64,000 nt of DNA from Arthrobacter sp. V1I7 (lineage in GTDB: Bacteria > Actinomycetota > Actinomycetes > Actinomycetales > Micrococcaceae). The translations under genes and the position numbers were made by a program. Location: NCBI RefSeq assembly GCF_030817015.1, contig NZ_JAUSYS010000001.1:4712001-4776000 (forward strand). The letters run 5' to 3'. Shown here one piece after another: positions 60,808 to 63,832 of the stretch (position 1 is the first letter of the stretch; each line of letters begins with the position of its first letter). The notes beneath the pieces were generated by a model. It saw only the letters and a program-made list of their open reading frames with translations. It made no database searches and was not told the origin of the DNA.

Positions 60808-60857
60808 ACAGTTGGCCAGCGGGGACAACTGTGACACTATCTGCGTATGAATGCAGA
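60808..60857 (+). promoter_or_regulatory. ArsR promoter/operator region
   Basis: ACAGTTG (60808-60814) / CAACTGT (60826-60832) is a perfect 7-bp dyad with 11-bp spacer. TCTGC (60840-60844) / GCAGA (60853-60857) spans the start codon, spacer 8 bp. CACTAT (60835-60840) is a possible -10, 6 bases before ATG 60847. Candidate ArsR operators. Confidence 0.45.
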
Positions 60858-61182
60858 CATGCAGGTTGAGCTCGCCAGTCCCCACGTGGAACTCGCCGTC
60901 GAGGTGTTCTCCATGCTGGCCGATGCCACGCGTGTCCGTTTGATCCTCGTCTTGGGACAGGGTGAACTGCCGGTCAACGTCTTGGCTGAGCGTGTGGGGA
61001 AGCCGGCTTCCGCCGTCTCGCAGCACCTGGCCAAGATGCGGCTGGGCGGCATGGTCGCCACACGGCAGGAAGGCACGAAGATCTTTTATCGGCTGCAGAA
61101 TGATCACGCCCGCCAACTGGTGATGGACGCAATCCACCAGGCCGAGCATGCGCTCGGCACTGCCCCTCGGCACGGCTCATGA
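60847..61182 (+). CDS. ArsR family metal-responsive regulator
   Basis: A 111-residue winged-helix repressor. HTH VNVLAERVGKPASAVSQHLAKMRLGG. The last helix carries N85-D86-H87 and H97 / H101, close to the alpha-5 zinc/nickel/cobalt site of CzrA and NmtR but with two ligands shifted by one residue. It overlaps the cation exporter (ATGA), so it most likely senses the exported metal and represses this two-gene operon. Confidence 0.88.
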   Translation: MNADMQVELASPHVELAVEVFSMLADATRVRLILVLGQGELPVNVLAERVGKPASAVSQHLAKMRLGGMVATRQEGTKIFYRLQNDHARQLVMDAIHQAEHALGTAPRHGS

Positions 61183-62249
61183 ACCGCCCGTCGGATGCCG
61201 TGGACGAACACAGCCACGGCGAAGGCCAGGAGCGCACGCACGATCACCCGCACGACCACGGCCACGGACCGCACGGGCATATGCACGCCACCGGTCTGAA
61301 GGGCTGGCTTCAGTCGGTCTTCGTCCCGCACTCCCACGACTCTGCGGACTCCATCGACGAGGCGCTCGAATCCAGCTCGCAGGGAATCCGCGCTGTCAAG
61401 GTCTCGCTGCTCGGCCTTGGCGCCACCTCGCTCTTCCAACTGGTGATCGTGCTGATCAGCGGCTCCGTGGCGTTGCTGGCCGATACCGTGCACAACTTCT
61501 CCGACGCGCTGACCGCGGTCCCGCTCTGGATCGCGTTCCTGCTGGGCCGCCGCAAGGCCACCCGGACGTACACTTACGGTTTCGGCCGGGCCGAGGACCT
61601 TGCCGGGCTGTTCATCGTGGCGATGATCGCGCTCTCCGCGGTGGTGGCCGCCGTCGAATCCATCCGCCGCTTCTTCGAACCCCAGCCCGTGCACAACCTC
61701 GGCTGGGTGCTCGCCGCCGGGCTGGTGGGCTTCGCCGGCAACGAACTCGTCGCGATCTACCGGATCCGCGTCGGCCGGCGGATCGGTTCCGCGGCCCTGG
61801 TGGCCGACGGTGTCCACGCCCGGACGGACGGCTTCACCTCGCTGGCGGTCGTCGCGGGCGTCACCGGTGTCTGGGTCGGCTTCCCGCTCGCGGACCCTAT
61901 CGTTGGCCTGCTGATCTCCGCCGCCATCGTCGTCCTCCTGTGGGGCACCGTGCGCGACGTCGGACGGCGGCTGATGGACGGAGTCGACCCCGACCTGACG
62001 GAACGGGTTGAGGCCGTCATCGCGGAACACTCCAGGGCCGGCGGGACCGCTCGGCTGCGCTGGTCCGGCCACCGGCTGCACGTCGAGATCACGGTGCCGG
62101 TCCCGCCGGACGGCCACCTGGTCGAGCTCGCCTCGGTGACGTCCAGTGTGGAACGCGGGGTCCGGCGGGCACTGCCGCACGTCGGCTCGGTGGCGGTCGT
62201 GCCCGGCTTCGCCCCGAGCCAACTCGCTACAGACGCCCTAAATCCTTAG
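61179..62249 (+). CDS. Cation diffusion facilitator (Zn/Co/Ni efflux)
   Basis: A 356-residue CDF transporter exporting a divalent metal by proton exchange. The N-terminal cytoplasmic tail is His-rich (HDHPHDHGHGPHGHMH). Six helices follow; the metal site is HNFSD in helix 2 and HARTD in helix 5. The C-terminal ferredoxin-like domain (RLHVEITVPVPPDG) is present. Start overlaps the ArsR stop. Zn, Co or Ni cannot be separated by sequence. Confidence 0.92.
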   Translation: MNRPSDAVDEHSHGEGQERTHDHPHDHGHGPHGHMHATGLKGWLQSVFVPHSHDSADSIDEALESSSQGIRAVKVSLLGLGATSLFQLVIVLISGSVALLADTVHNFSDALTAVPLWIAFLLGRRKATRTYTYGFGRAEDLAGLFIVAMIALSAVVAAVESIRRFFEPQPVHNLGWVLAAGLVGFAGNELVAIYRIRVGRRIGSAALVADGVHARTDGFTSLAVVAGVTGVWVGFPLADPIVGLLISAAIVVLLWGTVRDVGRRLMDGVDPDLTERVEAVIAEHSRAGGTARLRWSGHRLHVEITVPVPPDGHLVELASVTSSVERGVRRALPHVGSVAVVPGFAPSQLATDALNP

Positions 62250-62936
62250 CTAGGAGGCGGCGGCTGTGTGTGAGGGTTCCGGGCCCTCAGCCCACGCACG
62301 GTCGTCAAGCGCGAGCGTTTTCCAGCCCACATACGACAGTGCCACGGAATAGGGCAGTGTGCCGATGACGCTGAATGCCAGCGTGGACGGCAGGGTCATG
62401 GACCCGATGACGAATGCCACTACGGCCGCTGCCGGCCACCACGGGATAAAGCCGTTCCGCCAGAGCGCCAGCAGGAACAGTGGCAGTCCGAAGTAGACGC
62501 CGATGAGCCCCGGAATCTGCCATGCGGCGATATTTACCGGCGTCGCCGACCTCTCGAGGATCCCGACGGCAGCGTCAATGGGCAGCCCGGATTGGCCCAG
62601 GGCAATGGCGAACCAGTCGACTAGGAGCATCCCGCTCAGGTTGACCAGGCCGACAAATGCCAGCAGCCCCGCGGCACGGCCCCAGATGACTGCCCGGTGG
62701 CGAACCATCGTCAGCAGTCCCAGCACTGAGATCGACAGGAAGACCCAGCCGTAATGAAGGAACAGCGGCGCCACCTCGCCCTGGAGGGAATTGGCGCTGA
62801 CCGTTTGGATGAAACTTGCAGCGGTGTCTTCAGGCTCCCACGGTGTGAGAGCCATTCCGGCGAGCATGCCCAAGGCGCCGAGGAAGAGTCCTGCCGCCGT
62901 CGTTATGCGGCTGAACCGTGCTGCCTGAAGGATCAT
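62250..62936 (-). CDS. Hypothetical multi-pass membrane protein
   Basis: A 228-residue protein with about six hydrophobic helices (AGLFLGALGMLAGMAL, LHYGWVFLSISVLGLLTMV, AAGLLAFVGLVNLSGMLLV, IPGLIGVYFGLPLFLLAL and others). Not recognised; resembles DUF4386-like proteins only loosely. ATG 62936 lacks a good site of its own, but a 14-codon upstream frame ends over it (ATGA), so it may be translated by coupling. A convergent CDF gene abuts its end (62249/62250). Confidence 0.65.
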   Translation of the reverse strand: MILQAARFSRITTAAGLFLGALGMLAGMALTPWEPEDTAASFIQTVSANSLQGEVAPLFLHYGWVFLSISVLGLLTMVRHRAVIWGRAAGLLAFVGLVNLSGMLLVDWFAIALGQSGLPIDAAVGILERSATPVNIAAWQIPGLIGVYFGLPLFLLALWRNGFIPWWPAAAVVAFVIGSMTLPSTLAFSVIGTLPYSVALSYVGWKTLALDDRAWAEGPEPSHTAAAS

Positions 62937-62977
62937 CGTGACCACTCGCCTCGGAGGACAATGGTATGTTCGGCCAT
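62933..62977 (-). CDS. Possible 14-residue leader peptide
   Basis: On the - strand AGGAGGACA directly precedes ATG 62977, an almost ideal ribosome site. It reads MAEHTIVLRGEWSR and stops at TGA 62935-62933, overlapping the membrane-protein ATG (ATGA). Its ribosome site and start codon fall wholly in the left half of a 12-bp perfect hairpin. Too short to test by family; the case rests on the site, the overlap and the hairpin. Confidence 0.45.
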   Translation of the reverse strand: MAEHTIVLRGEWSR

Positions 62978-62985
62978 TGTCCTCC
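62953..62985 (-). promoter_or_regulatory. Perfect hairpin covering the leader ribosome site
   Basis: GGAGGACAATGG / CCATTGTCCTCC, 12-bp perfect inverted repeat with a 9-base loop. In the - strand mRNA one arm contains the GGAGG site and AUG of the leader frame. It could be an RNA switch that hides translation initiation, or a DNA operator for a dimeric repressor. Confidence 0.65.
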
Positions 62986-63214
62986 TGCCGCTTGCGGCGG
63001 ACAAGCAGAATTGGGTTGGACAGCCGGAAGCAATCAGCGCGCATGTCGGCGATGATCTCGCGGCAGTAGCTCACTGGCAGTTGGTCGTCGCAGCCGCTCA
63101 CCCGGCCACCGACGGACCAGGCACCCGCCGTTCGTCCCCGACGCCGGACCTGTTCGGGCCGGCTTCCGGGCGGAAATCGCCGCCGGGCCGACCCTTGAAC
63201 TCCCCGGCCGCTAC

Positions 63215-63832
63215 CTAGAGGTGCTGGATGCCTGCCCGCTGCATGGCGTCCTTGTAGACCTCGACGTTCTTCGCCAGGAGTTCTTCCTGCTTGGCTGCCG
63301 AGACGGCGAACGCGCGGCCGCCGAGGGCGGTGGCCTTGTAGATCTTGACGCCGCGGTTCTTCAGTGAGGAGTGGTAGGTCTTCTCGAAGAGGGTGAGGAA
63401 GGCGTGGGCGTCGGCGCCGTGGGCGATGATGGCCGAGACGCGCTTGTTGATCTTCAGGAACTGGCGGAAAGGCCGCAGGCCGTCCGTTTTCTCCTGGACG
63501 TTCAGTGCGGAGGGGAGCTCGGGGTCGCGGACCCAAGGGTAGGCGTTCCACGGCATCACGTAGCGGGGGTCGAGTTCGACGGCCTCGTAGATGGAGGTGG
63601 CGCGGCGGGCGGCCTCGTCATCGTTGAAGTGGGAAACGAAGCCTGACTCGGTGCCCTTGCCGGGGGCGATGTGCAGGCTGACGATCCGGCATTCGTCCTC
63701 GTCATGGACTGGATCGATGTACGGGACGACCGACCCCGGCTTCTTTTCCATGAGTTCGTCGCAAAGCGCCGTTACCGCCGCGATGTTCGGTTCCTGCAGC
63801 AGGGTCTTCTTTTCGTCCCAGTCAATCGTCAC
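63215..63832 (-). CDS. Uracil-DNA glycosylase-like protein
   Basis: A 205-residue protein I place tentatively in the uracil-DNA glycosylase superfamily, from VPYIDPVHDEDECRIVSLHIAPGKG, the YVMPWNAYPWVRDP block and the SAIIAHGADAHAFL strand near the expected catalytic His segment. The usual GxDPYP water-activating motif is not clear, so activity is uncertain. GTG 63832 follows GAGGGAG. Single gene, - strand, with 238 bp to the next upstream start. Confidence 0.55.
   Translation of the reverse strand: MTIDWDEKKTLLQEPNIAAVTALCDELMEKKPGSVVPYIDPVHDEDECRIVSLHIAPGKGTESGFVSHFNDDEAARRATSIYEAVELDPRYVMPWNAYPWVRDPELPSALNVQEKTDGLRPFRQFLKINKRVSAIIAHGADAHAFLTLFEKTYHSSLKNRGVKIYKATALGGRAFAVSAAKQEELLAKNVEVYKDAMQRAGIQHL

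Follow-up and report, generated by a model that had tools for sequence, protein, structure and literature searches.

On the minus strand of the 64,000-nucleotide stretch of DNA analyzed here (the window), a membrane-protein gene is preceded by an inverted repeat whose two 12-bp arms match perfectly across a 9-nt spacer. Our tentative best explanation is that this palindrome is a DNA operator with two-fold symmetry, placed across the membrane-gene promoter. This explanation is favored over the RNA switch suggested in a preliminary description of the same DNA. The switch, if real, would be a control element of minimal size and easy to test, serving a membrane protein that lacks family annotation, whereas an operator would be an ordinary kind of control site. 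The features discussed are collected in Table 1. Two relatives carry the gene at loci that could be compared. Locus L007 of Arthrobacter sp. ISL-30 holds stretch L019 of genome G506 letter for letter, and locus L006 of Pseudarthrobacter sulfonivorans ALL contains stretch L004 of genome G015, so that these are two relatives rather than four.

Table 1. Features of the palindrome, the putative promoter elements and the membrane gene in the window.
Feature	Position	Strand	Remarks
Left arm of inverted repeat, GGAGGACAATGG	62985-62974	-	Identical in L007
Spacer or loop, 9 nt, CCGAACATA	62973-62965	-	1/9 differs in L007
Right arm, CCATTGTCCTCC	62964-62953	-	1/12 differs in L007, breaking a pair
Leader SD, within left arm	62985-62981	-	
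Leader ATG, within left arm	62977-62975	-	
-10-like GACAAT, within left arm	62981-62976	-	
-35-like TTGTCC, further half-site copy	63004-62999	-	TTGTCC-16-GGACAA-15-TTGTCC
14-codon leader frame, MAEHTIVLRGEWSR and stop	62977-62933	-	Frame and length kept in L007, 2 amino-acid changes
Membrane protein, 228 aa, six hydrophobic segments	62936-62250	-	No Pfam or NCBIfam family
Alternative in-frame GTG start of membrane protein	62945-62943	-	GAGTGGTCA kept in L006; P0003 begins VITL

The minus strand from 62985 to 62953 reads GGAGGACAATGG-CCGAACATA-CCATTGTCCTCC, and the coordinates of the arms bear out the earlier claim that a ribosome site and AUG sit inside a perfect 12-bp hairpin. The perfect palindrome is present once in the 5.03-Mb genome (2 contigs), and four further sites fall within three mismatches of its 18 core bases, all of them at three. 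A count of perfect hairpins (arms of at least 12 bp, loops of 3-15 nt) in 464 kb, comprising the window and 400 kb of the same genome in 20 stretches, gave 31, five of which lie in the window. Order-1 random sequence of 4 Mb yields eight such hairpins, or 0.13 per 64 kb. The palindrome exceeds chance expectation, and strong hairpins are generally in excess in the sampled genome DNA; many of the 31 are probably terminators. A ribosome-site-like word together with a start codon within an arm is found in one of the 31 genomic hairpins, the one at 62985-62953, and in none of the eight random ones. RNA from 62990 to 62930 is predicted to fold at -26.9 kcal/mol (z -3.7). The leader SD and ATG region is predicted to be fully paired in all three modeled transcripts that contain it.

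The promoter-like pair that ranks first in both the window and L007 is TTGTCC-17-GACAAT (63004-62976), a weak 8/12 match. Under a scoring rule that requires the A and T of the -10 element, 41 of 1500 random 115-nt genome stretches score at least 8. Among the seven best pairs listed for the window, no -10 lies upstream of the palindrome. The second pair, TTGTCC-18-GATGAT, matches at 8/12 in the window and 7/12 in L007, and would start transcription near 62925, inside the gene. A standard promoter scan at 9/12 returned no promoter. Three copies of the half-site TTGTCC/GGACAA coincide with the -35, the -10, and the right arm, separated by 16 and then 15 bp. The gene upstream of the block shared by the window and L007 is unrelated between the two (BLASTP E 4.2), and the block extends no more than about 104 bp upstream of the ATG; the membrane gene therefore probably has its own promoter there.

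We infer the promoter, start point, regulator, and repression as follows. The TTGTCC-17-GACAAT pair would start transcription at about 62969, within the spacer, so that some 33 nt of RNA would precede the ATG untranslated and the transcript would contain no leader frame and no leader ribosome site. A dimeric regulator bound to the two arms, whose centers are separated by 21 bp (two helical turns), would mask the -10 together with the start point and thereby repress the gene. On this reading the left arm contains an SD and an ATG only because the operator's letters happen to spell them. A DNA operator is the better guess because of the predicted start in the spacer and the half-sites over the -35, -10, and right arm. 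No clear linked regulator was found. The only regulator that profiles identified near the gene is of the ArsR type and lies ahead of a cation-efflux gene on the opposite strand, and Pfam matches identified no regulator among ten frames beside L006 and L007, two of which had no match. No second good copy of the site was found in the genome, the best others having three mismatches.

The membrane gene is patchily distributed. Its protein has matches in 4 of the 206 genus genomes searched: its own, G015, G506, and a remnant in G440. A draw of 395 genomes from the family gave 11 protein matches, with identity of at least 80% in its own genome and G015 only; eight of the others lie at 26-29%, and that in G440 is 59% over 51 residues. 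A family search with the homologue P0007 as the query matched 8 of 395 genomes. In a mixed set of genomes, 3 of 59 matched. The G440 locus (L008) holds only a remnant, corresponding to residues 166-216 of the membrane protein and containing one stop, which is in keeping with patchy gain and loss of the gene. With the upstream 104 bp as the query, and at most four candidates scored per genome among the rows listed, 2 of the 206 genus genomes matched, its own and G506 at 91%. A 74-nt block query against the 395 family genomes, with two candidates scored per genome among the rows listed, gave as matches listed its own genome and a 32-nt stretch in G303; G506 was not among them. The core palindrome at up to three mismatches has a match in 139 of 206 genus genomes, a count to be read beside a control that is often non-zero too. 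The palindrome accompanies the gene in two different neighborhoods and is imperfect in the second, L007.

Between the window and L007, 8 of 55 positions just upstream of the palindrome differ, one of them a gap, and the arms and spacer differ as given in Table 1; the 16 nt from the right arm to the ATG are identical. The palindrome and these 16 nt therefore differ at 2 of 49 positions versus 8 of 55 upstream, a weak contrast (p 0.10). Compensatory changes in the stem, which the preliminary description had proposed as a check, did not appear in the two orthologues compared: a T-to-G change in L007 breaks a right-arm pair and is uncompensated. The L007 stretch still folds, with a z of -1.6 versus -3.7 in the window, although the L007 stretch is 20 nt longer. 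The leader frame, its length, and its overlap with the gene are kept in L007. Two of its 14 codons are changed, a small sample, and both changes are non-synonymous (E to G and I to M). The L007 copy of the membrane gene (L007:3001-3676) is frameshifted near codon 166, with its last part in another frame. With the gene frameshifted, the sequence upstream of it may be decaying freely, and the broken stem carries less weight for that reason.

The second relative differs more. The L006 membrane protein is 81-82% identical to that of the window, but upstream of the gene the similarity to the window is limited to the bases immediately preceding the start (GCGAGTGGTCA..ATG). Neither the left arm nor a perfect inverted repeat of at least 7 bp (loop 3-20 nt) was found in 170 nt upstream. 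Some of the loci of more distant homologues were not in gene orientation, and the comparison of upstream inverted repeats therefore draws on L006 alone among them. The L006 ATG is followed by C, so there is no ATGA overlap, and the leader is absent. Among database homologues, of which 18 were found and 15 read, only P0007 is called with an N-terminal extension, MWLEDNGRTSLSLERVVTM. Its residues EDNGRT equal the window reading of the left arm and spacer in that frame; judged from these amino acids, the left arm is probably present upstream of the P0007 gene. On the right side, the residues permit no more than 9 of the 11 right-arm bases that were tried (CATTGTCCT), in 24 of 15552 codon choices, and 2 of 400 random peptides allow at least 9. 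If the P0007 gene does carry the right-arm core, its spacer would be 2 nt shorter. Such a change, deduced from amino acids, would suit an RNA loop better than a rigid operator, because a spacer 2 bp shorter is awkward for a rigid operator spanning two turns. The lack of such a site in L006 is also counted against an operator.

The leader stop does overlap the start of the membrane gene, as previously described, with the TGA that ends at 62933 lying across the ATG at 62936. The accompanying claim that the gene has little ribosome site of its own holds only in part. Its upstream GAGG does pair with the 16S end, the energy being -5.9 kcal/mol when counted for the gene's ATG and -5.3 kcal/mol for the in-frame GTG at 62945, but more weakly than the leader SD, which pairs at -11.2 kcal/mol. 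Among six other starts in the window, each the putative first start of a listed frame, five pair more weakly than the gene's GAGG (-4.2 to +0.3) and one more strongly (-9.2). We also took the ATG-initiated frames 8-30 codons long from these 464 kb and counted those that end in an ATGA or GTGA overlap with a frame of at least 150 codons. Such overlaps are found for 5 of 50 tiny frames that have an SD and for 143 of 2439 that lack one (one-sided p 0.17). Tiny frames bearing an SD are thus not enriched for overlap, and the leader-gene coupling arrangement is not above chance.

These observations bear on the RNA switch, which we regard as doubtful. Here transcripts would begin upstream of 62985, the hairpin would hide the leader SD and ATG, and its opening would allow the 14 codons to be translated and the gene to follow by coupling. 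The strength of the hairpin, the full pairing of the leader start region in the modeled transcripts, the stronger SD of the leader, and the retention of frame, length, and overlap in L007 all fit such a switch. The P0007 residues, which permit a 9-nt right-arm core with a loop 2 nt shorter, add a weak point in its favor. Against it stand the uncompensated break and the two non-synonymous codon changes in L007, the lack of arm and inverted repeat in L006, and the chance-level frequency of the overlap arrangement. The preliminary description had also held that a transcript start within the hairpin would speak against a switch. The best promoter-like pair does place the start inside the hairpin, although this is a prediction from a weak 8/12 match. 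A search of 62200-63300 with Rfam covariance models at E up to 1 gave no match at the gathering score; the sole match, Xoo5 at 63157-63193 on the other strand, scored 22.8 bits versus the 50 required. A narrower form, in which the hairpin locks the site of the leader rather than that of the gene and its opening leads to leader translation and then re-initiation at the overlapped ATG, seems rather unlikely. The tests lean against an RNA switch on thin evidence from two relatives, while the anatomy fits one.

It is unlikely, in our judgment, that the palindrome has no present function in gene control, having arisen by chance or by fold-back copying upstream of a patchy gene and been tolerated. 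The distribution would fit such an origin: the gene is matched in 4 of 206 genus genomes, with one remnant and one frameshifted copy, and the upstream block is in 2 of 206. The stem is imperfect in L007, and L006 does without the palindrome. Its rarity in random sequence argues otherwise, as do the apparent retention of the left arm by P0007 and, weakly, the lower divergence from L007 within the palindrome and its 16 flanking nucleotides than upstream. It is quite improbable that the structure acts as a 5' hairpin or terminator-like stem, protecting the membrane-gene mRNA or ending upstream transcription, and that the leader frame has no role. The hairpin is stable and has 30 other strong hairpins for company in the sampled 464 kb, but no terminator-like site with a T run is found in 62200-63300, and in L007 the palindrome stands behind an unrelated gene. 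A terminator of the upstream gene specifically was rejected on the missing T run and the unrelated upstream gene in L007.

Several other candidates were rejected. A repeat element or terminal repeat was rejected on the single copy of the palindrome in the genome. A plasmid cassette found no plasmid DNA match, the one protein match (30%) being in an 11.9-Mb Nonomuraea record, and of a viral cassette there are two viral-contig stretches that fit a pattern, neither of which encodes a relative. An N-terminal extension of the protein through the palindrome was set aside, as P0007 is the only one of the 15 homologues called in this way and the L006 upstream region differs. The plus strand at 62971-63002 encodes SAIVLLPLAAD, which resembles TSIVLQPPAAD in G303 (L085:1501-1532, 88% over 32 nt). 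This 32-nt match is antisense in a frame that we take to be glyoxalase-like, at a locus without the right-arm core, and it is taken as a coincidence rather than a relative.

The palindrome resembles the CIRCE operator of HrcA in its arrangement, two inverted arms 9 bp apart close to a ribosome site and, here putatively, a promoter. The CIRCE arms are a strongly conserved sequence before heat-shock genes; the arms at 62985-62953 are unlike that consensus, and the gene here encodes a membrane protein. A literature search combining CIRCE with a phrase for a 9-bp spacer found no match. The predicted leader at 62977-62933 resembles repY-repZ of IncI plasmids, in which the leader stop overlaps or lies near the next start; translation there is leader-coupled and involves a pseudoknot and an antisense RNA. 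Among the titles listed by literature searches on coupled leaders with hairpins or on small frames in actinobacteria, none concerned this membrane gene. toiL-topAI is a case of translation controlled by an upstream ORF (PMC12121999), and it shares with the window a short upstream frame and secondary structure near a ribosome site. In toiL-topAI, the structure hides the ribosome site of the downstream gene, whereas in the window it is the site of the leader that the stem contains.

The membrane protein had no match in Pfam or NCBIfam profile searches. In a 16-member homologue set, the first member had no family match at E up to 1, and five families each match one of the 16 members, at E 0.069 to 0.32. 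The predicted structure of the membrane protein is all-helical and confident (mean pLDDT 89.8). Among solved structures, profile searching brought up a single match, which at E 0.94 was set aside. The gene at 63215-63832 had no family match. The membrane gene and the cation-efflux gene (plus strand, 61179-62249) stand tail to tail, with their ends adjacent at 62249-62250, and the cation-efflux frame overlaps the frame of the ArsR-type regulator (60847-61182) by 4 bases.
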